From Niebla homalea (taxonomy: Eukaryota > Ascomycota > Lecanoromycetes > Lecanorales > Ramalinaceae), in NCBI GenBank assembly GCA_019925105.1, contig JAHGAU010000028.1, forward strand, positions 620,001-684,000: a stretch of 64,000 nucleotides of DNA, written 5' to 3'. Shown in pieces: positions 10,493 to 50,544 of the stretch (position 1 is the first letter of the stretch; the number at the start of each line of letters is the position of its first letter). Under the pieces are notes generated by a model. That model was not told the origin of the DNA, did not search any database, and saw nothing but the letters and a program-made list of their open reading frames with translations. The position numbers and the translations under genes were made by a program.

Positions 10493-11013
10493 CTCCAATG
10501 ATAGAAGTTCACGGAGAACAGAAGGTCGCTATCCGTTCATCCCAACAGAATATTTGACTCCTCAGTGTTTGGGTACAAAGGAAGGTCGTCAGGCCCAGGT
10601 ACTGCCGGGCAAGTCAATAAGAGGAGGCGGTATGTGTTTTCGTATCAGTGCATGTGACATGAGGATTTGCATTTATACTTCCCCACTCCAGCGCGGCCTA
10701 CTACACACATCGTTGTTTGCCATTGGGGGAATAGCCTCTCGTCGCGGCAAGCGACTGCTCGAAAGTGGTCTCATGCAAACATACTACCAGTCGCAGCCTT
10801 CGCGAAGAGTAAATGCGATAGAGCTCCTGAAACAATGAAATGGATTCTCAATCACACATGAAGTTTTCCCATACACATATCCTTATCCTTCACTTGTCCT
10901 CACAATATTTTCACAATCGAGTTGCGCCAACTAAGCCCACCACTAAGGTATTTATTATCGATATTGAGAAATTAAGTTCGCGCTAGCACCACGTATCACG
11001 TGAATAAATTACA
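10493..11013. other. Intergenic, normal composition
   Basis: RPE1 3' flank. Base composition is still balanced up to about 11,038 and then falls abruptly to A/T saturation. Small open frames have no recognisable content. Confidence 0.6.
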
Positions 11014-11018
11014 ATCAA

Positions 11019-11151
11019 AGCAAGGGAAGGAAGCAGGGGATTGCTTAATAATCTTTAATCTTAAATAGTACATTTTCATAGTATGAAATATACTATTTTA
11101 CCTTATTTATAGAACCGCTTTACCTGCTTTATGAAAATAACGTATTTTTTT
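11019..11151 (+). repeat. 5' LTR of outer element
   Basis: 133 bp, gap-free match to 27120-27252. The first 20 or so bases (agcaagggaaggaag...) are unmutated, while the rest shows C-to-T and G-to-A changes relative to the right copy. Confidence 0.8.
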
Positions 11152-12965
11152 AAAGGTTTATACCCGGATTTTTTATAGTTTTAAATAACGATTAATTTTA
11201 AATATTAATTTTTTAAGGCGTCCAGAAGTATTTACTTTATTATTTTATATATATTATATATATAAATATTTTGCTTTTTATTCCGTTATATATTAAATAT
11301 ATTATTTTTAATTCCGTATTAAAATTATTTACTTTAATTATATATATTTAAAGTTTTAATAACGTTAAATTTTATTAAGTAAATATTAATGTATTAACCT
11401 TAAAATTATGAAATTTATTACGTTATTTACTTAGCTTTTTAATTTCTTAAAGTTTATAAAATCAGTTATTTATAAGTTTATAATTTAATTAAATTATAAA
11501 AGATTTTTAACTTTATTAATATCTTTAAAGAACTTATAATATATTAATCCGGTAATATATTTAATTTCCCGCTATAATTATTAACCGCTTTAATTTTAAA
11601 TCCTTTATTTAAAGTATTAAAGAAAAAAACGTTTAACCGGAAAATTATTTTTTTATTAAAATTATATTATTAAAATAACGAAATATTATTACTTCTTTAT
11701 TAATAATTCTTTTATAATAAGTTATTAAACTTTCCTTATTATTTAAGAAACTTTAATTCCGAATAATTTAAATTAATTAATTCGTTTTTTAAGTTAATAT
11801 ATTAAAGTACGTTTTTTACTTTAACGTTTTATATTTTAATTAAATTATTAAGCCCCGTTTTTATATTTAAAATATTAAACTTTAAATTATTAATTTTTAC
11901 TTTGAATAAAATAACGTAATAATTAAAGGGTTTAACCTTTATATTTTATAGTATATTTTTTAATTTAAAGAAAATAATTTAAGCGGATTAATAATTAAAG
12001 AAATTTAATTATAAAATAAATAATTATAAAAACGATTTAAAAATTATTAACTTAATTATTTATATTAAAGTATTAAATATAATCCTTATAAATAATATAA
12101 TTAAATAAGTAGAATTTTATTTAAAAGTAATCCGTTTATTCTTAAAATTAAGCTTTATTTAAAATATTATTATTTAATTAAGGTTATAATTTTATAAGAG
12201 GTTCCTTTTATATATTATTAAAGTAATTATTATTTTTATCGATATTTAAATTATAAAATTAAAATAAAATTAAGGAAAATTATTATTAACTTACTATAAA
12301 CGTACTTTAAGACTTATATAATGTATAAGGATTAAAAATAAATTAATATTAAAAATAATTTTAATATTAAGTAAATTAAACGCTTTAAAATTAATCTTCT
12401 TTAATTTAATACTTTAAGTTTTTATTAAGGGATTGTTAAATTTTATAATCTGAAAAAAAGTAATTTAAGGAATAATATCTTTAAATTAATCCCTTAAGTT
12501 AATTTATACCTTAATAAAAGAAATATACCGGATAAAAGTAAAAATTAAGAAACTTTTTATAAAGGAATATTAAGTTAATAAATTAAAATTCCTAAAAAAT
12601 ATATATATAATAATTATATATTATAATAAATAAAAGTAATATTTATTTTATATTATGCTTTAACTTATTAATTAAAAAAGCTTAAAGTATTTATTATATA
12701 ATTAAAGAAGTTTAAAATATTTATTATATAATTTATAAAAATAATTATTATTATTAAGTTTAAGATTTATAAAGATTTATAAGAATTAGCTTTTTCTTAA
12801 ATAAATAATTATAAATAAAATTATCCTCCGTTTATAAAGTAATCCTTATTATTTAATTTAAATTAAAGCAATTTCAAAAAGTTTTTATTTAAGTTTTAAG
12901 CTTTACTTAAAGAATTACCGGAGAAAACTATATTAATAAACCAGTTTATAAATAATTTAATAAAG

Positions 12966-13121
12966 TATTATGTGCATACATAGCATGGGGGATACCAGGG
13001 AGCATTCATAGGTATAGGACACTCTTTATACGTAGAGGACAGATAATCCTTAAGATCTTATCTGTATTCAGGTAGAATTATTATTTATATATTATTATAC
13101 TTTTTGGTTTATACATTAATA
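12966..13121 (+). repeat. 5' LTR of nested element
   Basis: 156 bp, aligned without gaps to 19689-19844. The left half keeps C/G-rich text (tgtgcatacatagcatgggg) while the right half is A/T-converted. Confidence 0.85.
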
Positions 13122-16100
13122 AATAATAGTAATAATTATTTATATTAATATTATATTAATATATATCGTAAGATCCGTTAATATAAATTGAAGTATTAAT
13201 TTATTAACTATAGCGGATACTTCCCTTATAATAATATTAAAGGTATTAACTTTATATCCTTTGGAATACCGCCTTTAATTCGCTTTTAAATATTTTTAAA
13301 GAAAAACCAGAAACGGTATTATAAAGAAAATATATATATTATAGGCTTCTTAAGTATTATTGGATTTTAATATTATTATTTTAATATATTAATTAAACGC
13401 TTTATTAAAATCCGGTAACTTAATAATTATAGCGATTTTATATTTAACTTCGGAAAAAATCGTTTAAATAATTAAGAATAATTAACGATTAAATAACTTA
13501 AGAATTATATTTATTATAAATAGATTATTTCGGTTAAAATCTTTTAAAGTTATAGAATTTATTACTTTTCTTAATTTAATTCTTAAAAATTAAATTTTAG
13601 ACTTTTTAATATTTTAACGTAATTTATTATATTTTAAAGATACTTTATTATTATTATAATTATTATATAAATTATTATCGACCTTAATAAAGTTAAGTAG
13701 GTTTAAATTACGTTAATATAATTAAAGTCCTTAAAAACTTAATATTATAAAATTATTATTTTTATTAAATAGTTTTCTACCTTTATAGTAACTATTAAAT
13801 TTACCTTTTATATTAACGTTAATATTATAATACTCCCCTCCGGTTTTAAGTATTAAACTTAAATTTATTATATTAAATAAAAAGTATTTTTATTAAAAAA
13901 GCAATTTTTACTTAATTTATTAATCCGCTTAATCGGTTAAAAATAATAGGTTTTACTAAAAAATAAATAATATAATTACGGGGTATAATTTAAGAATTAA
14001 TTCCCGTTATTATATAAGGTTAATAATAAAATAATCTTAATAATAATTTATTCTTTTTTCTTAATAACGTAATATAATTAATAAAAGGCTTATAATTAAA
14101 TTAATTAATAAATTTTAATCTTGGTAATATCGGATTTTTTAATCCTTTTTATAAAAATAAGTCCTTTAATATAGCTCTTATAATTAAGTATTCTGGGAAG
14201 TATATTTTTTTCCGGGATATATATATTTTTATTAATTAATTAAAGGATATTATTTAAATAATAAATATATAATTATTACGGAATAATTTATAATTATATT
14301 TAAAAGGTACCGCTTTAAAATAATATACTATAGAGTTATTAAATACCGAGAAATAACTTATTAAATATAATAACGGTTTAATTAAATGGACTTTTTAGAT
14401 TATTATTAAATTTAAGTTACTTTAATAAGTCAGTTTAAATATTCTGGTTATTAAAAAGTATATTATAAATAATATTTTTCGGAATTGGGAGCCCTATAAA
14501 TATATATAAATTATTTTATAGGCTATATATACGTTGAATTTTAATAATATTTAAAATTAACTTACGTTTATTTATAGCGGATTAAATTTAAAATTTTAAT
14601 AAGATTTATAATTATTAATTATAATTATCATTATTAATAATTACCTTAAGTTTATAAATAAATTTAAATATAATTAATAAATTTACATTATTAAATATTA
14701 CGTACCTTTATAGATATATCCGTAAAATCATAGAACGGATACGTTATTTTAAGGTAACCGGAATTTTATAGAAAATTTAGAAACCGGTCCTTTTTCTTAA
14801 TTATTAACGTTATCTTTTTAAACGTATAAATAAAATAAAGCTTATAATATATATCCTTAAAAAAAAGGATAGCAATAATTACCTTTAACGTCGTAAAAGA
14901 AAATATTAATATTAAACTAAGGAAAATTAAAGCCCTTAAAAAAAAAGTCCGATTTTAAATATTAAATATACTATATAAAATAAAAGGCTAATTAAGCCTT
15001 TATATTTAAGGATAAAAAAAAAGAATATATTATTTAATAAAAAAGAATTAAAAAGATCTTAAAATAATAATAATTTTATTATAGAAGAAATATATTTTAT
15101 ATATTTATTCCCCGTACGTTATTAATATATTAAATACGTATTAAAATACTTATTATAAAATAAACTTTTTATTTATTTTAAATATAATTGCTAAAAATTA
15201 AAAAGAGTAAACTTAAGTATTTTTAAGATTTTTCCGCTGAATTAATGGATTTAATCCGTTAATAATTAATATATATAAGTTTAATAAATTAATAATATAT
15301 TATTTATAATTATTAACTTTACCGTAATAAAGAATATATACCTTATAAACTTTATTTTTAAAGTATATTAATATATTATAAGTAAAGTTTAATTTACCCT
15401 TAATTTATCCGTAATAGACTTTTATATAAATAACGGGTATTTTATTATAATTATTAATCGTAATATTATATTCTTTTAAATTTTAAATTTAAATTTTAAA
15501 ATCCAGAAATTACTTAAGTTAATTCCGGTTATAAGTATTAATAATTTTAAGTTAATTATTAATAAATTTATAATATTTAACTTATTCTTCTTAAGGGAGA
15601 AAAATATAATATTTACCTTAAGAAAAATTTTAATTAAAATTTATTTAATACGTAATTTACCTATTAATATTTTAATCGTTATTAATATTATAATTCTTAA
15701 TAAAATAATAATTAATTTTAATAATTAAAAATATATTATTAATATTTATAAAAATATAAATATTAAAATAACTATTTTTACAAAGGAAGTAACGTAATTA
15801 TAACGTATAATTTACGTAAAGTAGCAAATTTGGATCTTAATTTATAGTACGGTATAAATATTAATTATATATTAAAAAAAAGGGACTTTAAAAGAATTAT
15901 TAAAATCCCGGGATTTTATCTTTAAACTATAATTAATATTGTCTTATAATCTTAGATTCCGAAGTAACGTATTTATATATATTGTTAACTTAAAAATATT
16001 AATTATTTAAATTAAAAACGATATTAATTAAAAAGTTAATTTATTACGTAAAATAAAATTTAAAATTTTATATAATTTACCCCCGTAATTTTACTATATA

Positions 16101-16299
16101 GTAATCTTAAGTTTAATAATATTACTCGTTATTTACAGATAAAGAACTTAAAAATTTAAGTTATAAATTTATAAAGTTATTATAATAATAATAGTAATCC
16201 TTATACTCTCCGGAATAATTTTTATAATTTTTAATTATTTAAAGATTTACTTAAACCGGTTATTATAAATTAATAACCGTAAAAAATAGGTTTTATTTA

Positions 16300-19200
16300 A
16301 TAACGTTAAAATTTATATATATAACGGAGATATATAAGTTTAATTAAGTAATATTATTAAAGAATTTAATAATATCTTTAAAAATAACGGTATTATAATT
16401 AATATTCCAGAAAATTAATATATATTTATTAATTTTTAATTTAATATAATTATTAAACTTAAAAAAGTATATAATATTAAGCGTAAAAATTAAAAAATTA
16501 TAAATTAAACTTTAAATAAAATATATAATAAAAGTAAGCTATATTTATTTATATAATTTACGGAATTTTTATATTTTACTTTTATTATTTAATGCGATAC
16601 TTTAAACGGACGTAAGGGCCGTATTATAATTAATATTTAATTATTTAATAAAATAAAGATTTCCGATTTATACTTACTATTATTATAATAAGAAATAATT
16701 TCTTTAATTATAAGTTATAAATATATTATTATAATTAATACCCGCGGTTATTTCTATTAATTTCTTATACGTAAATCCGATTAATATAAACTTTATATTA
16801 TTTCCTATAAAGGTTAAAAGGAATCTTTAGTTATATTAATAGATTTTAAAGGTAATTTTTTATATATATAAAGATAAATAAATAATATATTATATTTAAT
16901 ATAAGATTTTACGTAAATATTTATAAATAATATAATTATTTTTAATTATTTATTAAAAAAACATGTTATTTACCTACGTTAAATTTTTTAGATTCTTAAA
17001 GATAAATACGTAAATTTTTTACCGATAAAATTATTTATCGGTTACTTTATAATTAAGCTCCTTAATTAATAAATCAATTCTTTAAAAATATTTATATTTA
17101 ATAATAAAATTAAGGTTATATAAAACCTTAAATTTCCCGATTTATTAAGAAACCTTAAAGTTTTCCTTAATTTTATAAATTAATTATATACCGGAGTAAA
17201 GAATTATACTTAATATATTACTCCGCTTTAAGTACGTAAAACCTCTTTTATTATAGATTTAAGAAAAGCAGATCTAAAATATACTGGTTTACGCCGTAAA
17301 TAAAGGATATTTCGGATTAAGTTTATATTTACTTAAAAAAAAGACCGTACTTTTAAGGATTTAAAAAACGCGTTTTCAGAACCGTTATTTTTTATATATT
17401 ATAATCTTAATCGACTTTTATTTATTAATATTAATATATTAAAGGAATTAAATATTATAACTATAATATATTATATTAAGGATAATTTATTACTTTATAA
17501 TATTACGGAAACCAATAATTTATTAAAAATTATACGTAATAAAGTATAATTAATAATATTCCTTAATAAAAGCTTAAATATAACTAAGAAAAATTATTAA
17601 TTTACGGAATTAAAGACTACGGGTATAATCTGGATTATACGTAAAATTAAATACTTAATTAAAATAAATTATTATAAATTTAGCTATATAATCTTTATAA
17701 ATTATAACGTAATTATTAATATCTTTAAATAAATTAATTTAAAGACCTTTATAATTAATAAACTTAATTTCTGTTTAATTTATACGTTATAATATTTATC
17801 GATATTTAATATTTTATTACGTTATAAATCGGGTTTAATAAATATTATTCTTAATATATTTTTACGATTAATTAATAATACGTAAACTTTATTTATAGAA
17901 ATCGGAATTCTTAATAACGTAAATAATAATAAATTAATTATTCTTTATTATATTTATATCTTAAATAAATTTAAAGAATAAATTAAAAAAGAATATATAA
18001 AAAATAAAATATAAATAAAATTATAGAAAGTCTTAATAATTAAAGAAGAGTTAAATTTATAAAATATGAAAATTAAATTACGCTTTATATTAAAGGACGG
18101 CCTTATTTATAATTTAAAATCCATTAATTATTTATTATGATTATATATACTTAATAAACTTAAAAAGATAATCTTTTAATAAATATATAATAGTTTATTA
18201 TATAATAACTTTAACCGATTTTACGATAAATTAATAAACTTAATATATCTGCTTAAGTTAAGTAAATAATTACGGAAATATATTGTATATTACCTTAAGT
18301 ATAACCTTAATTAAATTAAAAAATATATACCCTATAAATTACTTTAATTAATTTTAAGTTCATTAATTATTTTTTATATTATTTATATAAACTTTATTAT
18401 CGCTTTATTAAATTAATATAATTACGATATACTCCTTATTATTACCGATACGTTCTTTAAACGGGTATTTTTACTCCTTAATAATATTAAATTTAAGGTT
18501 AATAATTAAGTAAAATTATTATTAATAGAATTAATAAAATAAAATTAAAATATTCCCTCCGATATTATATTAAATAAAAATTATAAATTTATTTCCGTAT
18601 TTTAAAAATCTATATTTAAAGAAATAGATATTTATATTCTTACGTTTAACGTATATTACCTTTAAATTAACGGTTAATTAAAACGGATTAATTAAACGGT
18701 TAAAATCGTATTATATTACTTTATAATTACGTATCCGGATTATAATTAAATAGATATTATCCTATATATTTAAAGTATCTTAAATAATTTAAAATCGGTA
18801 TTAACTAAATTTACTTTAAATAAAATTTATTATAATATAAATATTTATAACCCCTCAAATTTTTTAATAATCTTTTTAATTCTTAAGTACAATATATTTT
18901 AATTATAAAATTATAAAGAAATATAGAACGTATTAAAATTTACGTAAATAATAGTTAAATTCCGGTATAATTAAAGTTATAAATTAATTTAATTTAATAT
19001 TAATAATTTAGTTTATTTAAAATTATATTATAAATATAATATCTTTAATATTAAAAATTATAAACTATATTAATAATACGCCGGACCTTTCTTTATTATT
19101 AAGAAAATCAATTACCTTATATATAAGCTTAAATTACCCGTTAATATAAAGATAATACCGGTTATTTTAATTAATATACTTAAGTTAATTAATAACTTAA

Positions 19201-19577
19201 TAAAAAACCCTTTTAATAAATAACTTAATTATAACGCGCCGTTTATACTTAAAGTAAATTCCGAGAATAAAAAAAAGTATATTATTAAAAGGATTATTCA
19301 TAAAGAAAGAGATAATAAATACTTAATTAAATAAGCTACTTAAAGTATAGAATATAATAGTAAGCTTCCGTTATTAAAGTTATATCCAGATTTACTACGT
19401 GAATTCCATATTATCTATCCTGAATTTAATAATGTTATTATTACCCGTCGTAATAAACCTTATATTATTTTATCGTAATTATTAACGCCTATTAAAATAA
19501 TACCCTTATTATTTACCAGCATTTTTTATACGCTTTATTTTAAACGTAATCGCGGCCGCCCCCGTAAAATCGGGTAA
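16300..19577 (+). pseudogene. Gypsy pol relic: reverse transcriptase, integrase C-terminus, chromodomain
   Basis: Readable as a decayed plus-strand frame. GRKGR at 16608 marks an RT fingers segment. F-I-N-N at 16920-16931 stands where gypsy RTs have the catalytic Asp-Asp, so both Asp codons now read Asn, as RIP on the opposite strand would cause. YAGPF at 19077 marks the integrase C-terminal (GPY/F-like) region. A chromodomain-like segment follows from about 19278, and the frame ends with NRGRPRKIG, an AT-hook-like basic tail. All anchors share one frame over almost 3 kb. Stops are frequent, and no function is possible. Confidence 0.75.
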
Positions 19578-19688
19578 GATTTTAGCATAAAAACATAAGT
19601 ATATCGTATTATTAAGTATTAATATTTATATTGATATATTAAGGTAAACGTTACTATAAGTAGTGGCCTTTTTTCTTTTAATAATATT

Positions 19689-19844
19689 TATTATATATAT
19701 ATATAGCATAAGGGATACCAGGGAGTATTTATAGGTATAGGACACTCTTTATACGTAGAGGACAAATGATCCTTAAGATCCCATCTGCATTTAGGTAGAA
19801 TCATCATTCATATATTATCACACTTTTTGGTCCATACACCAACA
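19689..19844 (+). repeat. 3' LTR of nested element
   Basis: 156 bp. The left (inner) half is A/T-converted and the right (outer) half keeps catctgcatttagg and ggtccatacaccaaca. It is the mirror image of the pattern in the 5' LTR. Confidence 0.85.
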
Positions 19845-22319
19845 TAAAGTAATTAATTATAAATAATAATTTATTATATATTTAATACGGAAAATATAAT
19901 TATAATTTTAATAAATATAAAAATAAAGAATTATTATAATAAGAACGGACTTATTTAAAGTCTATTATATTCGGAAGTATATTATAAGTAAATATTATTT
20001 CTTTTAATATTTTAAAGCTTAAACTTTATAATAATACCTTAAATAAAATTTTATTTTATAAATAAGTTATTTTAATTATTATTTACGCCCCGGAGTTATT
20101 TATTATTAGTAATATTATATAGAGTTTAAGTAAATTAAATAATTTATAGAATTAATTAAAAAAAGAAAATAGACCTTAAGTAGACCATATTAAAATAAAA
20201 TTAAAGAAAGATTTACGTTTAATAAATAAGCCCGTTAAAACTTAAAGCCTTTAATATTTTATAAGGTTAAAAACGAAATAAAGGATAATAAACCTAAAAG
20301 AAAGGGTCAGAAAAAACATAATAAGAAAATTAAGCTTTAATTTTTAATTAAAATATTTAACGCAAAAATAAGAAAATATAAATTACTTATCTTTATTTAA
20401 GAATTATTATCATTTAATATTAAAAACCTTACGTAAATAAATTTTTTTTATTAATCGCTTATAATATTATAAGAAATAAAGCGGTTATTTATACGGATAA
20501 TAAAGAAAACTTTAAAGTAAAAAAGTAAAGTTAAAAATATTATTTTATTAATTATAATCCTTATTATAGGTTAAAATCTTAATTTCCCCGTATTATTTTA
20601 TTAATATTTTAAAGGGTATTAACCTGGTTTAATTATTATATTAAATATTAAGCCGTTATTTTATAATTTTACTTTAACTTTTTCATCCCTTAAAATATTT
20701 AAATTAACTTTATAATTACCGGAATATTAAATAATTTTTATATAAAGTTTCTTTAAATTATAATAAAGAATAAAAAAGCATTTTACGTATAATATATTAT
20801 TAATACTTTAAGGAAGAAATATATTTTAAATAAAATAATTATTTAAATAAATTAAAATGCCGAGTTAAATATTATATTTAAAGGGTTAATTTAAAAACTA
20901 TCCTTTAAATTATATCCTTTAATAAAGATTAATTTTAAAGGCTTATTTGTATAAACCGTTAATTACCGTAATTATATACTTTATTTCTGGGTTTTTTTAG
21001 ATATTATTATTAAAAATATTATTAAGAATATTTATTACTTAATCGCACTAGAAGTTATAGTTATTAATGAAACAGGTTAGGTAAGTTAACTAAGTTTTTT
21101 ACTTAAATTACCGTAACTATAAAATATAAATATTTATATTTTGATTTAAAAGTTATTTATTATAATTAAGGATATTTTAATAAGTAAAAAACCTTAAGAT
21201 ATAATGGGACCTGAATTAATATTCTATAAGGACTATAATTTAATCCTTTATCTTAAATTACTTATAAGGTAAAAATTATTAACGAATAATAAAGCGGATT
21301 CCTTTAATTTAAAGTTAAACTTTAATAATTTAAATAATCTTTTTAATATTAATAACTTAAAGCCGCTTTTTTAATAAGTCTTTAATATAACTTTAAATTA
21401 CTAAGATATTAATATTAAAATAAAGTACTCCTAAGCCCTTTAAACGTCTAACTAATATCCCCGAAGCTAGAGAAAACCTTACCTTTAATTTAAATATATT
21501 CAATAATAAGTCGGTTTATTTTAATTTTCTTAATTTAACCTATTAATCTTATTTTAAAATTAATTAAAGTCTAAATACTAAATCCTTTATTATTATTAAT
21601 TTATTAATTTATATTATTACCAGGATTCTTATTATTATATTTTAAAGTATCCGGAATATTAAGTTTTTATTTAAAAGTATATACGTAAAATTAAAATTTA
21701 ATTTAAAATTTATATTTACATTAATTAATTAATAAAACGTTTTTTATAAGTATAATATTTAAAGCATTCTTAAGATATTAGGAAATAAACGTTTTCTTTA
21801 TTTATAAAGTATACCGTTTATAACCGGATAAAATAATTTCTTTTATTAAACTTAAAAAATAGGTTAAAGAATTAAAATTGGAAAAAGTGCTTAAACCACT
21901 CATATTAATTAAAGCCGATCGGATCCGTATTTTTTAATTATTTTATTAATATAAATATTTAAATAAAAAGGATTTAATAAATCTTTTATATATAGATTTA
22001 ATAATATATAAGATCTATATAAATCTTAAAATAAGATCGTATATTATCAAGAATTAAAAACGCTAAGCTTTATATATAAAATAATAAATAAAGAAAATAA
22101 CCTCGGATAAGATATTAAAAAGAATTTATAAATTAACTATAATAATAAATGGTTAACTATTTTAATAGAATTTAAGGCTTATAATAATTAATAAGGTTAA
22201 GAACTTAATATTAAACGATAAATTAAGAATAACAATTAATTATTTAAGAGTTAATAAGTTATTTCTTAAAGCTTACCTTAAAAGATACTTAAATATCTAT
22301 AATTATTTATTTAACTTAA

Positions 22320-22700
22320 AGTACGGATATTTATTTTTAGCCGACTTAAAGTATATATACTTAATAGTTCCGTTATATATAAATTATCGATATTTCTTTA
22401 CTTTTTCGGTTCTAAGGTTTAATTAGCTATAGTCTATATATATATAATAAGGTTCATAATTAATAGGCTTTATAATAATTAAATTAATATATTATACTTT
22501 CGGATTTATCTTATTATTAAAATTAAAACCGTTTTTATTTTACTTAATAAGCTTAAATTATTTATTACCCCTTATATTTTATATAGATAATTTCTTTAAC
22601 GGATTTAAGGATTTTAAGGAATAATTTACTTTTTACGGGATTATTTTTTTCCTTATTATAAATAAGTATATTTACTATTATTATTTAAGAAGCTCCGGTT
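22320..22700 (+). pseudogene. Reverse transcriptase relic of the outer gypsy element
   Basis: A plus-strand frame gives ADLK at 22340-22351 and, 79 codons later without a shift, FYIDNFF with YIDN at 22580-22591, in the place of the RT catalytic Y-x-D-D. The second Asp reads Asn, again a G-to-A change. The intervening residues fit a gypsy RT of a type different from the nested element. RNase H and integrase should follow in 22.7-24.4 kb, but I could not anchor them. Confidence 0.6.
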
Positions 22701-25700
22701 ATTTACTTTATAAATTAAAGTATTTAAAGTAACTTATAAAATAGGAAATAAAGTTTATATTATTAAAGAATAAATTAAAAAGATTATTAAATAATTAACT
22801 TTAATCGATTAAAAGGGCGTTAAAAGCTTTTTAAGAATGATAATTATAACTTATCGCTAAATTAAGAATTTTATAAAGTATATACGTCCCTTAATTAAAC
22901 TTATTAATAAAGTACCTTAAAAGTAAGGAAATATTAAATAATTATCCTTTAAGCTTTTAAAGATTTTTTATATTATTAAAATTAATATAAATAAAATTAA
23001 TTTACTTAAAACTAATTTATTTTTATATTAATACTTTAATATTTATAGTTAATTTATTAATTATATAAATAAATAATATTATTAAAATTAAAGTATTAAT
23101 CTTATTTAATTTATTTTTATTTAATACTTTATAAAGGAAATATCTTATATATAAATGGGAACTATATACGATTATTAGATTCTATTTAAAGTACGATTAC
23201 CTATTAAAGTACTTATATATACCCATAATTATTTATATAAATTATAGGTTATTAACGTATTTCTTTAAATTAAATCTTTAAAAAAGAATTTATAGTTATT
23301 AAGCGGATATTATAAGAAAATTAAATGTTATTATTATATATATCCTTAATTATTAAAATAAAGTTATAAACGGATTATTAAGGACTTTTTTTTTAAAAGA
23401 CTATTCTGATAATATTTTAATTATTATTACTTATAAATACTTAAATTTAAATGGTTTTATTTAAGTATAAAAAAATAAAAAATATAACTTTTAAACGTTC
23501 CTTTAAGAAATATTAAACTTTAAACGTAAAAAAATTATTAATGAAAAGATATTTTAAGGAGTAAATATATTTATTATAGTTATAGGAAATAAAGTATTTA
23601 AAGTTAAAGTAAATTTAATATTTAATAATTAAAAAAAAGTATATTATTAATACGGTTAATTTTATAGAATTTATAATTATTTAATATTAAGAATTAAACC
23701 CTTTTTAAAAAAGCTATAAAAATCTCTTAATTTTTAAATATTAAATAATTAATTTTAATTTAATTATTAAGGAAGGATATATCCGTATATATTATAAATA
23801 AAAGTCTTCTTAATATTAAATAAAATATATAATGAATTAAACTATTAAGGTTATATTAATATCCTTACTTAACTTAAAAATTATTATTAATTTATAAAGT
23901 CTATAAATATTAATACGTATATTTAAAAATACTTAAAATACGTAAAATACGGCCTTATTATTTAAAGTTAATTACTTTAATTTATATATATAACTTATCC
24001 GTTTTAATTACTTAAAATAAATTTTATAAGATTATTATTAATTAATTACCGTAATTCCCGATATATACTTAATATTTATTATTATTTTTCAAGGTTTATA
24101 ATATTATTTATAATTAAATTAAATTAAATAATAAAAGTAATTAAATCTTTTTATTAATATTCTAATTATTTTAAAAGCCCGATTATATATATTATAATAA
24201 AAAATTATATTTTTTAAATAATATTTTGAGTATTTTCCTTTTAAATAAAAAAATTATTATTTTATATAATCCGTCCGGAGTTAAAAATATTATTAATATA
24301 ATTAAAGGAAATAATTGTTTACTTAAAAATATATTAAGGAAGGATACGGAATTATTAAAATAGGACGAAAGATTATTTAAGGGAATATATAAAGTAAATA
24401 ATAGAATTATTAAGTATTTATAAATATTATTTACTTTAATTTTATTTAAATTATTAAACCTTTAATTTATTTAAGTTTTTATATTAATAACGTTATTTAA
24501 GAAAAATATTTATAAATAAATATATTAATTAAATAATCCGGTTTCTTATATTTTAAAGATATTAAATTATATCTTTTATAAAACGTATCTTTAAGATATT
24601 ATTAATTAAAAATCCAAAAAATAGAAAACGCGTAAAATAATCCGTTATAATAAAAGAGTACGGGAAGTCCGCTTTAAAGCTTAAGATTTTATTTTATTAT
24701 ATTAAAAGGATTTAATAAAATTTTAATTTTATTAATATAAATTATTCCGGGTTGTATATTATAATTCTTATAATATTTCTTTTATGCTTTAATAATTAAA
24801 TAATCGTAAAATAAAAAATATATTCCATAATAATTATTTAAAGTTATTTATATTATAACGTAATTACTTATTTTAAACCTTAAATAATTATATTTCTTCA
24901 ATAGTACTTCTTCTATAATATTAAAATATTAAAGCCCTTAAAGTTAAAACCTTAAATATTATATTAATTAACTTTTAATTATTAAAGAATAAGTAAATTA
25001 TTATTAATAAATATTTTAACCTATTATATTTTATAAATAAAGCTTAAGAAATTAAAAAATTTATTTTAAGGTTAAATATTAATTAAAATTTTATTTTATT
25101 TATTTACTTTTAAATTAAGACTTTAATTAACTATTTAATATATTCTTATACTTATAATTTTTATATTTTTTTAATTCGTTTAATAGTTTTATAACTCTTA
25201 TACCCTTTTAATTCGTTTATTAATTAAATAAAATAATATAAAATTAAAGTAAGATATTAAACCTTATTAAATCTAAAGCTAGTAAAATAAGGGGATTAAT
25301 AAATAAAGTTATAAGAAATAAAACTTTTATAAAAAGAATAATAATAACGGATACTATTAATAATAAGTTTAATAATTAAATTAATAACAATATTAATAAA
25401 AATAGTACTTTATCATTTAAGTGAATAAAAGTATTTATTAAGTTTAAAATTACTTATAAATTAAAAGCTACTTTTAAATTAAAAATAATAATAAGTAAAG
25501 TAAATAAAGTTTTTTAAATGCCTTTAAAAGACTTTTATATTTTATTAAAAGATATAAACTTTAATAATATTATAATAATAAATTAAGTTTTAATTTAAAG
25601 TATTATTATAAATAAATTATCTCTTAATAATGGTTATTTATTATAAAAGAAAATAACGATTATACCTTTTAATATTTATCTTAACTTTACTTTAATAAAT

Positions 25701-26487
25701 ACGATTATATTTATAACTTTAAAATCCGTAATTATTAAAAATATATATAAAATATAAAATAAATTATCTATAATTATAAAAACGGCTATAGGAAAAACTT
25801 TATTAATTAATTTTAATATAAATTATATATTAAAAATAAATGCTTTTTAAGATATAATTAAGGATTATATAAAGTAATTATTATTTATATTTAAACGTAA
25901 TTAAATAAGCTTTTTTATAAAAAAGATCGGGAAATAAGATTTATACTTATTATCTTAAGAGTTATTTTTAATTTTACTTTATAAAAGTAATTCCTTAAAA
26001 TATATATAAATTATAAATATAATAATAAATTAATAAGAAACTTATATATACTTAAAGCTTATATTTTAAAATACTTTAAAATTAAAAGCTATTTATAAAG
26101 TAAAAAAAATATTAATTTAAAGGTAAAATTAAGAGTAAATAATTAAAAGGATTTATATAATATATTTTTAATTTATAATTTTTTATATATAATATTAAAT
26201 AGAAATAGAATTTATTATACGTTAATTTATTATTAATATTAAGAATATTAGAATAGAACTTATTTTATATAATATAATTATTAATAACTTAACGGATTAA
26301 TTATATACAGAAAAAATAATTATCGTTTTATTAATAAAATTTATATTAAACTTATTTAAATTAATATTAATATTAAATAATAAGATTACTTATAATAAGG
26401 CTATTAATATATATAATTATATTAAGCAAGTAAATACGACTCCTTTAATAATAGGTAATTTAACTTTAATTATAATCGGTCCTATTA

Positions 26488-26582
26488 TTTAATTAACTTA
26501 ATTTATTGAATTAATTTAACTAGCTTAATTTGCTAAATTAATTTAATTAACTTAATCTGCCGGATTAATTTAATTAATATAA
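26488..26582. repeat. Short A/T-rich tandem repeat inside the outer element
   Basis: Three imperfect units of about 27 bp built around actTAATyTgcyrrATTAATTT. Units differ mainly by transitions, so they were probably identical before RIP. Confidence 0.5.
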
Positions 26583-27119
26583 TTATTATAATTATCTTTT
26601 CTGCTAAATTAAACTTAATTAAATATTATAATTAATACTTTTATAAAAAATTTAAATATATTTACTTTAAAAGACCGTTAAAAATTAATTTAAAATATAT
26701 TAAATTTTCTAATTTAAAAGGTATTCTATAGGCATAAATATTAATACCTTATTTATAATTAAGGAATAATTATTTAATTAAAAGTTAAGTTAAAAGGTTT
26801 TATATATAAAAAGGTTATTAAGTTAATCGAAAATAAAAAATGAAGTAAAATTTAAAATATATAAAAAAAGAAATATTAAGTTACTATTAAAATTATAATA
26901 ACCCCGTAAATCCGATAGGAAATTATGGATATAATATATTAAGTTAAGTTAAATAAAAAGGTTTTATTAATAAAAGTAAATATATAAAAAGAATTAAAAA
27001 TAGAATTAATTTTTAAGTTAAAGTAATAAGCGATTAAAAAATAATATATTATATTTAAAATATTTATAAAGTCGATACTTTAAAATTGTAAATATTTTCT
27101 TTCTTTAAAGGGGCGGACG

Positions 27120-40648: not shown

Positions 40649-43600
40649 TTATGGGTCTTCCTCATCATCAGCAAGCCTGCTCCTGATTGCCGATGTATCT
40701 GTATCTTCTATGCCGTAGGCCTTGGTAAGATTGCTCAGCCTCTGGAATTTAATGTCTTCTGCCCCAATTTCTTGGGGTTGATCTTCTTGAATTGGAAACA
40801 GAAGATTCACAGTGAGCATAGTAATTGGATGTTCGGGGCCGAGCCCCTTTTTGCACTTTTCCAGCAACAGCGACACAATTCGCTTGGCCTCAATGGTTTG
40901 ACCTTGCCTGAGTAAATGGGTGGCAAAGTTGCACATAAGCAGTAAGCCTTCTGGATTCTCGGGGCTCATCATTCTTTCTTGAATCTTAGATATTTTCGAT
41001 GCGATTCTCTTGGCCTCAATGGTATAGCCGTGTTCGAGTAAAGCAGCGACAAGCCAGCACATAAGCTCTAAGCTTTGTGGATCTTCTGGGCAAGTCACTC
41101 TTTCTAGGACCTCAGGTATTATCGATACAATAACTTTAGCCTCAATAGTTTGATCCTGCTGGAACAAAGCGAAGGCAATATCGCCGATGAGGTATATGGT
41201 TTTTGGATCCTCTGGCCCAGTCACTCTTTCTAGAATCTTGAATATTCTCAACACAATTAGCTTGGCATCAATGATTTGGCTTTCCTCAAGCAAAGCCGCG
41301 GCAGTGCAGTACATGCGGTGTATGGTCTTTGGATCCTCTGGGCCAAAAACTCTTTCTTGGATTTTCAATGTTTTCAACACAATTTCTTTGGCCTCAATAG
41401 TATGACCTTGCTGGAGCAAACTTTCGGTAAGCCAGTACATAAGCTGTAAGGTTTCTGGATCCTCTCGGTTACCCACTCTTCCTTGAGCCTCAAACAATTG
41501 CAACACAACTTTCTTGGCCTTAATAGCGTGATCATCCTTGAGCAAGGTATAAGCAACCGTGGACATCATCCTTAAGGATCCTGGATCATCTGGGCCAAGC
41601 ACACTTTCTTTAAACTCCAATAATTGTGACATCGTTTTCTCTGCTTCGTCGAAGCGACGCAGCCTTGTCAAGAAGAGAACAATATGGAACGTGATACTAC
41701 ACCGTAGTGCATCGTAGTCGTGAAGTTCAGTGACCACTGCCAGCAACTGCATCGATTCTTCCAATCCCTTGTCTATTTGGCCTTGCTGATACCAATGCCC
41801 GCAAAGACGGTGTCTGCTCGTCAATGTCTCCAAATGCTCGGCGCCGTGTTTCCTTTCGCAGAATCTGATTATCTGCATTTGCACTTCAATTGCCAAGTCG
41901 GGTCGGTTTAGATCGTGCAACACCGCTGCCAGCTCTTCCTTGCAAGACAACGTCTTGGAATGATCCAGACCAAGATCGTCGTCAGCCACCCCTATCTTTA
42001 GTAATAAACACAAGGCTTCCTCGTTGTTACCTTGTTGTCTATACCCTTTAGCCAGTGAGATTATGTGATTGATTATCTGTGAAGGGAAGGGCGGCTCCAT
42101 CTCATTGTAGACAAGATCACAAAGATAGGCTGCCTCGGCGAATTTGCCTCGATCAAGATGGGCCTTAAGTAGGAAACTAATGGAGTCCATCGTGCTCCGA
42201 TGTTTCCAGCCTAGCGCATTGCGACTCTTTCCGACTATCTTCATGCCTAAATCTTCGGCTTCTCCAAATCGGCGCTGATGACGGTATACCGTCCCCAATA
42301 GACGCATGGTCGACAAAGTATCAGGATGCTCCATACCAAGCATTTGGCGTCGAATTTTCATTGCTGTCCTGGCTAGGCTTTCTCCGTCTGATGGTTTCAT
42401 TGTGAAGGTCACTGCATATACGCCTGCATTGTGCATTAATGTAGCGAACTCTTCCAATGCTTGCGCCTCATTCGATAACACTGCTGCTTCAGGCGACTGC
42501 AACAAAGCTGCCTTAGCGTGAGGGAAAAGTAATCGATATTGCTTCATCTTGTCGTAATCGACTAATTCGGCTGGCCATGCCCGAGCAAGAACCTTGAAGA
42601 AATGCCATTTGAATACCTCGAGTTTGCCTTCTCTTGCTAACCAGTTCCGTGTAGCTAACTGCACTAATGCGTGCATTCCAAAGCTCCCGCCTATACTTTC
42701 GGAGATGAATGAATAGCCCCGGAGAGTTACAATGTCGTTTTCGAGGTCAATGTCCACACTGTCCTCTGATGTACTGTCGCTGGCTGACTTTCCTTCAGCG
42801 TCTTGTGCCCCAAGCAGTTCTCCAGGAATGTTTTGTCGGTCAAAGAAGCTCATCAGTGATAGGCGGTCAGCGGCTGATCGGCGTACTTTACGTAAATGCT
42901 CAAACGAAATTAGCCAAGTAGTGAGGATCTTGCTTGAGACATTCAGATCTCTGCGGGGTTGGCCACCTTCCTGGTCCAAAAGCTCACTCCTCTTGCTGTC
43001 GCTCTTCTGGAAATGCTTGTGATACCGCGAGATTGACCAACGCGGTCCTGCGTGGGAGATGAAGGCAGCCGCTTGTGCGATTGCGAGAGGCATACAATCC
43101 AGCGCCGCAACCAAGTCTCTTCCGTTGCGCTCACTGTGCGGATCTGTCAATCCGCCAAGGTATTTCTTCAGAAGTTCAAGTGCATCGGATTCGTCCATTG
43201 GGTCGACCGGAATGATATCAGGATATTCCACCAATTTCTCTGCGATATCTCTATAGCGAGTGGTCATGAGAACGCGTCCATTCTCGGTCTGTGGGAAAAG
43301 CCATGATAGTGGCTGGGATGTTTGGCCTCTGCTACCGGGTGCTTGTGTCTCCTGGCTGCTACCTTCAGACTTGAGGGAGATTTGGGCGTCATCAGCGTTG
43401 TCGATGATCACTAGCCAAGTTCCATTCCTCCCGTCCCGCAACCAATTACGTACGAGCTTGAATTTGTCAGTCTGAGGATCGTTATGTCTAGGAATCTGGA
43501 CAAGGTCGGCTATATCCTTATAATCTTCTTCAAAACGTGCGGGGCTGCCTGCAAAGACCCAGAACACCCACGTATCTGGGCATTGCTCTCTCACCCGGTA

Positions 43601-43999
43601 TCCATACTCAATGGCAAGCTGGGACTTTCTGGATATGGTCAACGACGTACGCACTCGCAATCAGTGTTCATACCTACCCGACACCACCCAAGCCGACAAG
43701 CGCCGTCAGGGATGAGGGAAGGGTGCACTTTTTATCAATCTGATCTAGAATGCTTTCACGCGCGACGAAATCTGGGTCCCTCCTAAACGGGATATTGTGG
43801 TAAGGTGAAGGCGGCTTAACGTTATCCCCTGTAGAATGACATGCTTAGTTATCAGTCTCGAGATTGTGGCAAGATCTCGAATACCGACTAAGGGTGGGAA
43901 GGTTAAGTTATTGATTGTTCCCAGGTTTGAGCCGACTTGCAACCCCTGGTTGCCTCCGCCTCCGAACACAGTATTCAGATAGTTAGTAATGCGTTCCAT
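40649..43999 (-). CDS. NB-ARC/TPR NLR receptor with N-terminal amyloid-like motif
   Basis: STAND-type receptor. CDS complement(40649-43628, 43678-43828, 43885-43999), 1,081 aa. Intron 1 (43829-43884, 56 bp) and intron 2 (43629-43677, 49 bp) are GT..AG; intron 2 splits the last P-loop Gly codon, and splicing gives GLGGVGKSQ at about 84-92. Residues 1-33 carry NTVF-GGGG-NQGLQVGSNLGTI, matching the end of the HeLo gene upstream. Then NB-ARC: Walker B LVIIDNADD at 161-169, MTTRYRDIAE (sensor-like) and CMPLAIAQAAAFI (the GLPLA position). The rest is TPR, the last six 42-aa units being alike. Inferred role: oligomerise on ligand recognition by the TPRs and template amyloid folding of the HeLo partner to trigger cell death. 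An in-frame TAA before ATG 43999 supports this start. Confidence 0.93.
40840..41640 (-). repeat. 126-bp tandem repeats encoding C-terminal TPRs
   Basis: The landmark ggatcctctgggcc-like segment recurs at a 126-bp period (near 40956, 41082, 41208, 41334, 41460, 41586). Each unit encodes 42 aa with IEAK..V, ERV.GPEDP and a helix pair. Confidence 0.85.
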
Positions 44000-44021
44000 G
44001 CTGTCTGATTATGTGCTCCAT
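43983..44021 (-). promoter_or_regulatory. Short upstream ORF overlapping the NLR start codon
   Basis: On the minus strand, ATG at 44021 opens 12 codons ending in TAA at 43985-43983, past the NLR ATG at 43999 and in another frame. The two ATGs sit in a duplicated 13-bp sequence (cagacagcatgga) 22 bp apart. If the transcript includes it, it should lower receptor translation. Confidence 0.45.
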
Positions 44022-44337
44022 GCTGTCTGTTTCTGAGCTTCGTTTTCTTTTTCAACATGAGGGGAGCATGAAAGAGCAGGTAGAGCAGGGTGTTCAATCT
44101 CGCGGGTGATGATAAGAGCAGCCTACCCTGCACACCTCCCTGCAAATAACGACCGAGAAGTGCGGGGTTGTAACCAATAAATACCACGCATGATCTCACG
44201 GGGAGTAAGACTGGGGATCGATCCGAACCAATCTCCGAGGCTAGAATCGAATGGCTTTTGGGATGGAGGGCGATAAAGCTTTGAGATTGGCACAAAGATT
44301 TTATTCGGTCTCACTAGCTTTGCTGACTGCAGCAGTT

Positions 44338-45144
44338 TTATGCAGCTCGACCATTTCCTTCACCCCCCCCAAGTGTGAACCTACTGATAGACCCTGAATT
44401 ATGACCCAATTGCAAGCCTGAGTTGTGACTACCTGAGAACACGGTGTTGTAAGATGCACCTCTGCTCGCTCCTAGCTCAGATAACATGTCTCCCAGAAGC
44501 TTGTCTTGTTCCGAGGCAACTTTTGTCAAGAGTGGTACCGCTGTACTGTCATTAAGTGCCGATACTTCGTCGCTGCAAAGTCTCCGTTGATCTTCCTGAC
44601 TGGCAGGAAAGAGCCCGACAAGATCATCAATGAGCTCTTTTATGTCCTCAATCAGCCGTCTAAAATTTTTCTCTTGGTACAATGCCCACTTGACCTTCTT
44701 CAAGAGACCCGTTCGATTCTGACGCCGTATAGTTATCTGACGCATCTTGCTGCAAAGGTTCGCTGTGGGAGGATCCATATCCTCTTATGGGTTGCAAACG
44801 GCGAGCTGACCGCCGCTGAGCTTCGATTGATTGATATATCTTTTGGAGATGATCTCGGCTTGCTCAAAAATGGCCAGGGCTTGACCAAGCAGCTGTTTGG
44901 CCTGTTCAGTGTTCTTCGAGCCAAGGCGTTCCTCCAGTAATGCCTCGTCTTGAAGATTCTCCCCAAGACCTAGAGATGCACCCCATCTGGACAGGCGTAA
45001 TCTGGCGCATTCTAGGTTGAGCTGACTTGTTGCGAAATCTGTCCCGAAATTGCGACCCAGTTGGATGAACTCGAAGCACTCAACAGCATTGTTGAACAGG
45101 CCGGCAAGTGACATGGCACCTAACGTAATCCCCACAGGATCCAT
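44338..45144 (-). pseudogene. HeLo-domain cell-death effector with C-terminal amyloid-like motif, interrupted by one stop codon
   Basis: Starts at ATG 45144. Residues 1-119 match the HeLo domain (HET-S-like prion-inhibition family): MDPVGITLGAMSLAGLFNN, then ECFEFIQLGRNFG and ARLRLSRWG. The same frame continues after one TAA (complement 44785-44787) with the rest of the HeLo fold (RRQNRTGLLKKVKWALY, FRRLIEDIKELIDDLV) and ends with YNTVF-SGSHNSGLQLGHNSGSI at 44338, 268 codons in all, including the internal stop. No intron can remove the stop (nearby GT/AG pairs are under 30 bp apart). HeLo proteins form membrane-disrupting helical bundles once their C-terminal motif adopts the amyloid fold. 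It lies 339 bp upstream of, and co-oriented with, the NLR that carries the matching motif. As written, only a 119-aa fragment would be made. Confidence 0.87.
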
Positions 45145-47910: not shown

Positions 47911-50544
47911 ATGGCGGACGTAGGTGGCCTTGTGATTACGGTCTTGGAGGTTGGTTTTGAGATTACATCAAAGCTTTACCAGTATGGCAAGCAAGTCAAA
48001 GGAGCTCGTCGAGATATCCAAGCCTTGAGTGGCGAGCTGTTCAGTTTGCTTGGTACTCTAGAGCAAGTAAAACGCCAGCAGGAACAAACCTTCCGCAGCG
48101 ATGATGAGACCCTCGTCACTGAGACTGAGGCAACCCAGAGACCGAATACAGATTTGAAGGATCCGAGACAGCCCGTAGCAAATGATGATTCCATTGCCGA
48201 GTCTCAAAGATCAAGCACATGTTCCGTCCTAAATCAGACCCTTGACTTTCTCCAGGATTTATTACAAACCTTAGTACCGAAGAAGGGCCGCTTCGCAAGC
48301 AAAGTGCAGTGGCCATTTAAGGAGAGCGAAATTAGAAACCACCTCAAGAGACTCGAAAGAGTCAAGACGTACTTTCTTCTCTCGCTCGTCACCGATGAAG
48401 CAGACCAATCGCGCAAGGTGATGGAAGAGATCGTTTCTTTGAAATCTATGATGTCTGAGATGTCGTTTGAGAGTCATGATAGCAAGCGATACAAGGAGTT
48501 CACAAAGGTCATGGACTGGTTATCTCCCGTGAGCCCTAAATTGACACGCGACACATTGTCCAAAATCAGGACCGAGGGCACCGGTATCTGGTTCACAAAG
48601 GCCTATCCGTTTGAGAGTTGGAGCAATGGCTCGTCTGGCGAGATCAGGACACTTTGGATTAATGGTTTTACGGGTGCTGGGAAGAGCGTCTTGATGACAG
48701 CTGCCATCAACCGCCTTTTCTCATGTGTTGATGGTGCTGAGGACATTGCATATTTCTATTGCTCTTTCAGCAACGACGAAACACTCAAGACTGTCAATGT
48801 CTTAGGCTCATTATTAGCTCAGCTCCTACATTTATTAGATCCTGGCTACGAGGATCTATTGGCGCAGTATAAGACTCTTTGCCTACAGACTCATGATCAA
48901 CCTCTGCGGCCGGAAAAGCAAACATTAGTGAAAGCATTGTGCCAACGTGCTGGATCCCAGCATCCTATATATCTCCTGGTGGACGGATTGAATGAGTGCG
49001 GCGACCCGACAGAGATTCTTGAGGCCTTGAAAAGCGTCTCTGACGCATGTAGTGACGTAAGAATCTTGATATCGAGCATCAACGAAAAGGGCATTGAGGA
49101 ACAACTTGAAAGCTTCCCGAAACTACATGTAGAGACACTGGGTCCTCGAAGCATGAGACATGATATACATCTTCTTATTTCCTCATCTTTGGAAACCTCA
49201 CCGCGATTGAGGCGATTGCCAGCGGAGCTGAAAGGTGATATCGAATATGCACTTACCCATGGAGCCCAGGGTATGTTTCGATGGGCTCAGTGCCAGCTTG
49301 ACATTCTATCACGGAAGCGAACACCAGGTGGAGTCCGTGAAGCACTCAAGCACCTGCCGCCTACATTGGAAAAGACATACGAACAGTTGCTACTCGGGAT
49401 AGAGGAAGGCGAGGATCGCGACTTGACCCGGCAAATACTCGAGGTAGTCACATTCAGTCTTCGGCCCCTTACAGTCGACAAAGTGAGCGAGATTCTGCAA
49501 ATCACTCCCGGCATGGGAGAGCTCGATGAGAGGAAGCGGCTCAACAATCCACGAGATATCCTAGCTATCTGCGGCAGCCTTCTCGAGTACCGTGACTCGA
49601 GATATGGTGTCGGCACTGTCACTCTAGCGCATCATTCTGTCAAGACGTACCTGACATCAGATCTACAAGGATCGGTATCGCTGTTCAAGTTAGATCCCTA
49701 CAGCGCTCATCGGCGGCTGGCAATGGCTTGTTTGACTTACTTATCGTTTGATACATTCGTCAAAGGTGGAAGTCAATTGGACAGGACACATCCAGATGCC
49801 ACGGACAAACAACATCCATTTGGCTTCTATGCTGGATTCAACTGGCCCTTTCACATCCAGGAGCTCCCAGGTTTCAGCGTCGACACCGATCCAGAACTCT
49901 GGAGTCTGCTACAGACCTTCCTTCTCGGCCCCGCTTTCCGGCACTGGGTTAACTTCTTGATCCCGGGCTCTGTCAACGCAGCCACTACCGCACCTCTCTA
50001 CTACGCCTCATCCTTTGGTCTCACCACAATCGTCCGCTTCCTCCTAGAAATGCCAGATGTGGACGTGGAACAGCGCGGTGGGTTAGGTGGCGCCACACCC
50101 ATCAACATTGCCGCCGGACGGGGTCAGCTGGACGTGGTCCGGATCCTGCTGGACCACGGAGCCGACCCCACGAAACCGGACCTCCTCACGGGCCTGGATG
50201 CGATCCAGTGGGCTGTGTTCTATGACTGGCCGGAGATCGTGAAGCTCTTGCAGAGTAGAGGCTTCTTCTTCCGACCGCTTGACTGGATGAACAACGATGG
50301 CCTGGGATCTTGCAACGGCCTCCGGAGGCTCATGCGGAAGCCTTATGTAGACAGACAGGTTATTGAGCATCTGAACCCTTGGGATGAGCGGAGGGCAGAC
50401 AGATCTTCGTCCGACCCAGTCACCAGGGCTCAGTTGCGGGAGGAAGAATCTCACATTGAAGAAGAGGCTGATATCCAGGAGATACGGCCTAGAAAGGCTT
50501 ATCATGATTCTGAGCCTCTGCACGAGTCTGGACATGAGGATTGA
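47911..50544 (+). CDS. NACHT-ankyrin NLR receptor
   Basis: Single exon of 877 aa from ATG 47911 (the frame is open upstream but without ATG). Residues 1-150 resemble the helical N-terminal domain common in fungal STAND proteins (ADVGGLVITVLEVGFEITSK, then a coiled helix with GARRDIQALSGEL). NACHT: Walker A GFTGAGKS at about 252-259, YFYCSFS, and Walker B-like YLLVDGLNEC; then a winged-helix part with HLPPTLEKTYEQLL and LAHHSVKTYLTSDL. The C-terminus has two to three ankyrin repeats (APLYYASSFGLTTIVRFLLE; TPINIAAGRGQLDVVRILLD with HGADP) and an acidic tail. A role in recognition-triggered signalling or heterokaryon incompatibility is inferred. The ankyrin array is short for this class. Its stop codon lies in the first unit of a minisatellite. 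Confidence 0.9.
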   Translation: MADVGGLVITVLEVGFEITSKLYQYGKQVKGARRDIQALSGELFSLLGTLEQVKRQQEQTFRSDDETLVTETEATQRPNTDLKDPRQPVANDDSIAESQRSSTCSVLNQTLDFLQDLLQTLVPKKGRFASKVQWPFKESEIRNHLKRLERVKTYFLLSLVTDEADQSRKVMEEIVSLKSMMSEMSFESHDSKRYKEFTKVMDWLSPVSPKLTRDTLSKIRTEGTGIWFTKAYPFESWSNGSSGEIRTLWINGFTGAGKSVLMTAAINRLFSCVDGAEDIAYFYCSFSNDETLKTVNVLGSLLAQLLHLLDPGYEDLLAQYKTLCLQTHDQPLRPEKQTLVKALCQRAGSQHPIYLLVDGLNECGDPTEILEALKSVSDACSDVRILISSINEKGIEEQLESFPKLHVETLGPRSMRHDIHLLISSSLETSPRLRRLPAELKGDIEYALTHGAQGMFRWAQCQLDILSRKRTPGGVREALKHLPPTLEKTYEQLLLGIEEGEDRDLTRQILEVVTFSLRPLTVDKVSEILQITPGMGELDERKRLNNPRDILAICGSLLEYRDSRYGVGTVTLAHHSVKTYLTSDLQGSVSLFKLDPYSAHRRLAMACLTYLSFDTFVKGGSQLDRTHPDATDKQHPFGFYAGFNWPFHIQELPGFSVDTDPELWSLLQTFLLGPAFRHWVNFLIPGSVNAATTAPLYYASSFGLTTIVRFLLEMPDVDVEQRGGLGGATPINIAAGRGQLDVVRILLDHGADPTKPDLLTGLDAIQWAVFYDWPEIVKLLQSRGFFFRPLDWMNNDGLGSCNGLRRLMRKPYVDRQVIEHLNPWDERRADRSSSDPVTRAQLREEESHIEEEADIQEIRPRKAYHDSEPLHESGHED

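Follow-up and report, generated by a model that had tools for sequence, protein, structure and literature searches.

Does a HeLo gene, together with the NB-ARC/TPR receptor gene adjoining it, encode a working fungal amyloid signalosome, and to which class does the motif carried by the two proteins belong? The window, i.e. the whole stretch of 64,000 nucleotides analysed here, covers C28:620001-684000, so that a window position equals the contig position minus 620000; the wider searches covered the assembly of 50.57 Mb in 52 contigs. On balance, the locus is likely to represent an amyloid NLR signalosome of the PP type, similar to hellp/pnt1 but with a HET-S-type HeLo effector, in which a premature stop has probably broken the effector while the receptor remains open.

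The two genes and their shared motif

Both genes lie on the minus strand. The first part of the HeLo frame, which opens with an ATG at 45144, spans 44785..45144 and consists of 119 codons followed by a TAA at 44787-44785. The same frame continues past this stop (44338..44784), encoding the remaining HeLo domain and a C-terminal motif before the final TAA at 44340-44338. With an X placed at the stop, the HeLo domain (PF14479) scores 170 bits, and the protein matches the solved chain 2wvn, annotated as 'small s protein', with an E-value of 6.4e-36. We judged this match sufficient support for assuming a HeLo fold.

The receptor gene begins 338 bases beyond the end of the HeLo frame. Its predicted structure has three exons. 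Exon 1 (43885..43999, start codon at 43999) contains the receptor motif and is followed by predicted intron 1 (43829..43884; 56 nt, GTATTC..CTACAG, with a branch-like CTGAT). Exon 2 (43678..43828) encodes a linker reaching the P-loop (GLGGVG), within which predicted intron 2 lies (43629..43677; 49 nt, GTAGGT..ATCCAG), and exon 3 (40649..43628) carries the remaining NB-ARC domain and the TPR repeats through the stop codon. Given these two introns, the whole NLR is an open frame of 1081 amino acids. The original prediction of an NB-ARC-TPR receptor agrees with the Pfam result (PF13424, 108.6 bits; PF13374, 91.2 bits; PF00931, 30.6 bits), with the addition of the two introns, which the prediction lacked. 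Visual inspection of the translation shows that Walker A is retained (GLGGVGKS), as are a Walker B-like segment (LVIIDNADD) and the stretch GMHALVQ.

The effector motif is at 44460-44383 and the receptor motif at 43975-43907, both on the minus strand within the span for which a paired motif had been proposed. When the two whole proteins are aligned locally, the best match falls exactly here, as an ungapped block of 25 residues between HeLo residues 233-257 and NLR residues 9-33, with a BLOSUM62 score of 73. When the NLR segment was shuffled 20,000 times, the mean score was 23.9 and the maximum 58; as none of the shuffles reached 73, a chance likeness of the motifs was rejected and the proposed pairing stands. 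The anatomy is also as predicted for a fungal amyloid signalosome, with a C-terminal motif on a HeLo effector and an N-terminal motif on the neighbouring NLR.

The class of the motif is PP (pseudopalindromic, RHIM-like), judged from profile and core-pattern matches. The 44-residue effector segment matches PF17046 at 50.4 bits, against a cut-off of 23.2, and the motif scores 49.8 bits in the genome search. The receptor motif falls under the same cut-off, both as a segment (19.0 bits) and in the genome search (19.7 bits), and PF17046 is not listed when the whole NLR is the query (E up to 0.01). The core NxGxQxGxN is present on both sides, as NSGLQLGHN in the effector and, as an exact match to the pattern, NQGLQVGSN in the receptor. 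PF17046 is named 'PP (misnamed SesB)' in a passage of PMC12261475, and the PP core is given as NxGxQxGxN in a passage of PMC9815663; a PP consensus of 17/18 residues is derived in part of PMC3321046, with a printed spacing that differs slightly from that of the present segments. Assignment to the sigma class, which the original prediction had tentatively suggested, is unsupported because both segments carry the NxGxQxGxN core and PF17046 is the only Pfam family listed for either of them (E up to 1). A HET-s motif (HRAM) system finds no support either: its two 21-residue repeats were not found in the effector, for which only HeLo and PF17046 were listed (E up to 0.01), and even with E allowed up to 1 the C-terminal segment matched no family but PF17046.

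In its ancestral intact form, and by analogy with PP and HET-S systems, such a pair would respond to a ligand binding the TPR region of the receptor. The NB-ARC receptor would then oligomerise, and its clustered N-terminal PP motifs could fold into a RHIM-like amyloid, which would template the C-terminal PP motif of the effector. The HeLo domain might then attack the membrane, killing the cell or fusion cell. In this genome, the sequence of events probably breaks off at the effector, leaving an open receptor beside a broken PP effector.

The internal stop of the effector

The reason lies at codon 120 of the 268 HeLo codons, where the in-frame TAA stands upstream of both the remaining HeLo domain and the motif. 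This stop, overlooked in the original prediction, was also reported by the genome-wide HeLo search. The earlier description of a HeLo gene that ends with the motif therefore holds only in part: the motif is in frame at the C-terminus, but the TAA intervenes. Because the TAA precedes it, the motif can be translated as assembled only if the stop is bypassed, and the product is probably a 119-residue HeLo fragment that lacks it.

In the alignment of the best 120 of 277 HeLo relatives, the column of codon 120 holds a residue in all 120, as it does in the solved chains 2wvn and 2wvo. An internal stop at a position where every one of these listed relatives has a residue suggests that the HeLo/NLR pair is probably non-working in this genome. 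The surrounding sequence is well preserved. In the 16-residue segment around the stop, 13 of 15 comparable residues are identical in the relative P0001, and identity to this protein is 87/119 before the stop, 75/105 after it (residues 121-225) and 23/28 in the motif. The frame is thus about as conserved beyond the stop as before it, which makes a recent origin probable if the stop is real. This genome would then show, in nature, a receptor that has outlived the cell-death effector it once controlled, an outcome comparable to HET-s inactivation.

The same preservation can be read in another way, namely that the TAA arose from an error in base calling or assembly and that the true effector is, as in its relatives, a HeLo-PP protein of 268 residues. 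The near-equal conservation on either side of the stop fits such an intact pair, as does the lack of any further stop in the 268 codons. A recent genuine mutation would look identical, however, and single substitution errors should be uncommon in an assembly this contiguous, so that we regard an error as unlikely.

An intron that deletes the stop is less probable still, and we consider it doubtful at best. We collected the GT-AG segments that remove the stop, keep the frame and retain >150 residues (GC-AG donors were listed alongside). There are 13 of these, the shortest being 48, 54 and 63 nt, and frame-keeping segments are thus available. The shortest, at 44810-44763 (GTCAGC..CCACAG), would give a 252-residue effector with an internal deletion of 16 residues. 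The donors GTCAGC, GTTTGC and GTCAAG look weak, however, and a branch-like match occurs in only one of the 13, the 153-nt candidate, where it lies 9 nt before the end; the 48-nt segment is among the 12 that have none. Whichever candidate is taken, none of the 120 listed relatives lacks more than half of the residues that would be removed. Deletion of the 48-nt segment, the only case scored, lowers the HeLo score by 15 bits, from 170 to 155.1. Conserved residues would thus be lost, branch-like matches are missing from 12 of 13 candidates and the HeLo score falls, and an intron was judged unlikely on these grounds.

Very improbable, in our view, is a split gene in which the 119-residue HeLo part is followed by a restart at ATG 44778, giving a separate PP piece of 146 codons that would lack the N-terminus needed for membrane attack and act as a non-killing motif carrier: the ATG is in frame six bases (two codons) past the TAA and conservation persists in the frame beyond it, but ribosome restart after a frame of 119 codons is rare in eukaryotes, and the listed relatives are all single proteins, 0/120 being interrupted at the stop column. 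We give equally little weight to the functional form of this idea, in which a separately translated PP half would make the effector a split or muted carrier, able to be seeded by the receptor into amyloid without killing. Nature would then have produced, in a PP system, the equivalent of the HET-s allele that has lost its toxicity.

Relatives and known systems

A search with the HeLo protein gave 277 matches. The best of them covers 98% of the query at 73% identity, and the near relatives with names, Ramalina farinacea and Puttea exsequens, are both Lecanoromycetes. Intact copies of the effector are present in relatives. PF17046 is carried by 111 of the 120 listed HeLo relatives (the best 120 of 277, counted by hand from a precomputed Pfam column). 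Within the last 80 residues of these 120 proteins, G-phi-Q-phi-[GAS] occurs in 114 and the strict core in 96. The receptor search returned 1379 proteins, and in the first 70 residues of the 120 that were listed the loose pattern is found in 42 and the strict one in 33.

A search for the same gene pair in related genomes had been proposed, and it bore out the expectation, with at least nine pairs of a HeLo gene and an NLR gene in the two lists of 120 matches each. Co-location was taken from contigs of equal size and is backed by consecutive locus tags in three of the nine (OHK93_002456/002457, MMC21_002717/002716 and M1822_009062/009061). The partner NLR model opens with the motif in six of the nine pairs, with P0125 having a variant form. 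No motif was found in the partner NLR models of the three best HeLo matches; these models start past the P-loop. Judged from these listed matches and equal-size contigs, PP signalosomes with a HeLo effector are seen in seven named genera and two further sources. Over seven pairs, including the present one, the motifs are no more alike within pairs (own mean 56.7) than between them (other mean 57.4), and 3718 of 5040 permutations gave a value at least as high; there is thus no sign of pair-specific co-evolution of the motif.

The arrangement itself is of a known kind. According to the part of PMC3321046 (2012) that describes them, HeLo-PP proteins of Arthroderma otae and A. gypseum lie beside STAND proteins with NB-ARC, TPR and a homologous N-terminal extension, i.e. 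the same combination of a HeLo protein with a C-terminal PP motif and an adjacent NB-ARC-TPR receptor. The present locus differs in the internal stop of its effector and in its affinities, since its named near relatives are Lecanoromycetes while A. otae belongs to the Eurotiomycetes; it adds an example of the HeLo-PP/PP-NB-ARC-TPR arrangement from a genome with Lecanoromycetes as its closest named relatives. The pairing with NB-ARC-TPR, singled out as worth a look in the original prediction, proves ordinary for PP systems because it occurs in these Arthroderma pairs and because the architecture of PNT1 is given as PP-NB-ARC-TPR in a passage of PMC12881547.

Adjacent genes and the PP motif are likewise common to hellp-pnt1 of Podospora anserina and hellp-sbp-pnt1 of Chaetomium globosum, as described in a section of PMC7885112. 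The same section reports that the N-terminus of P. anserina PNT1 forms a prion, activates HELLP and partially cross-seeds with human RHIMs. The P. anserina receptor is also PP-NB-ARC-TPR, and its gene has a single early intron of 54 bp (nucleotides 95-148), to which the predicted 56-nt intron 1 of the present NLR is comparable. The difference lies in the effector, which has a HeLo-like (HELL) domain in the hellp systems covered there and a HeLo domain (PF14479) here. HET-S/NWD2 of P. anserina shares with the present locus a HeLo pore-forming effector under a neighbouring NLR through a common amyloid motif, but it combines the HET-s beta-solenoid repeats with NACHT-WD, whereas PP is combined with NB-ARC-TPR here. 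The sigma systems (SesA/SesB/Het-eN of Nectria haematococca) also share an amyloid motif between effector and NLR, and differ in the motif itself.

Other PP sequence in the genome

Genome-wide, the strict DNA core pattern occurs at three places, two of them at this locus and one on contig C14. The PF17046 search of the genome gave at least four, namely the two here and two on C14 that lie ~10 kb apart. The C14 motif that scores 28.1 bits is near a stretch that looks P-loop-like by eye. One C14 motif precedes this stretch, to which Pfam assigns no clear family. The other C14 motif is on the opposite strand and is preceded by pieces, one of them resembling an alpha/beta hydrolase below the Pfam cut-offs and one with no match. 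The C14 locus is similar in arrangement to a PP receptor paired with a lipase of the SBP type, perhaps in a decaying state, and it might supply an effector. Both C14 motifs sit in islands inside AT-rich DNA.

A second PP locus

Outside the window, a second locus carrying PP motifs lies on contig C14 of the same assembly (loci L012 and L017), with one motif on the minus strand at G000:C14:1010568-1010645 and another on the plus strand at G000:C14:1020707-1020787. One of the two precedes a P-loop-like stretch, and the other, on the opposite strand, is downstream of lipase-like pieces that contain AHSLGG; the hydrolase matches of these pieces all fall under the Pfam cut-offs. Both motifs are within islands surrounded by AT-rich DNA, and the frames of the locus are either broken or rich in introns.

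HeLo matches beside NLR matches

On contig C10, a plus-strand HeLo match and a divergent NB-ARC match on the minus strand (L018, G000:C10:826606-828242) are separated by ~600 bases. Inspection by eye found no PP motif at this locus, which adjoins AT-rich DNA. A further HeLo match is in divergent orientation to a NACHT match ~1.1 kb away on contig C9 (L019, G000:C9:266429-268647), with one internal stop in each of the two matched frames. By eye, this HeLo frame closes with a candidate HET-s-type motif.

P0119, a HeLo relative of metagenome origin, is a 421-aa gene model on a contig of 1450 bases, and its Pfam column gives HeLo, PF17046 and TPR. This combination is either a fusion or a prediction artefact.

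Surroundings in the window

The window holds a second NLR, a NACHT-type protein with ankyrin repeats (47911-50541, plus strand; NPHP3_N, 110.9 bits), which lies 2.8 kb past the HeLo gene start and whose long N-terminus has no Pfam match above its cut-off. At ~11000-27000, GC per kb is only 12-21% over 16 kb, compared to near 50% in the rest of the window, and the dinucleotide ratios of this stretch are RIP-like.
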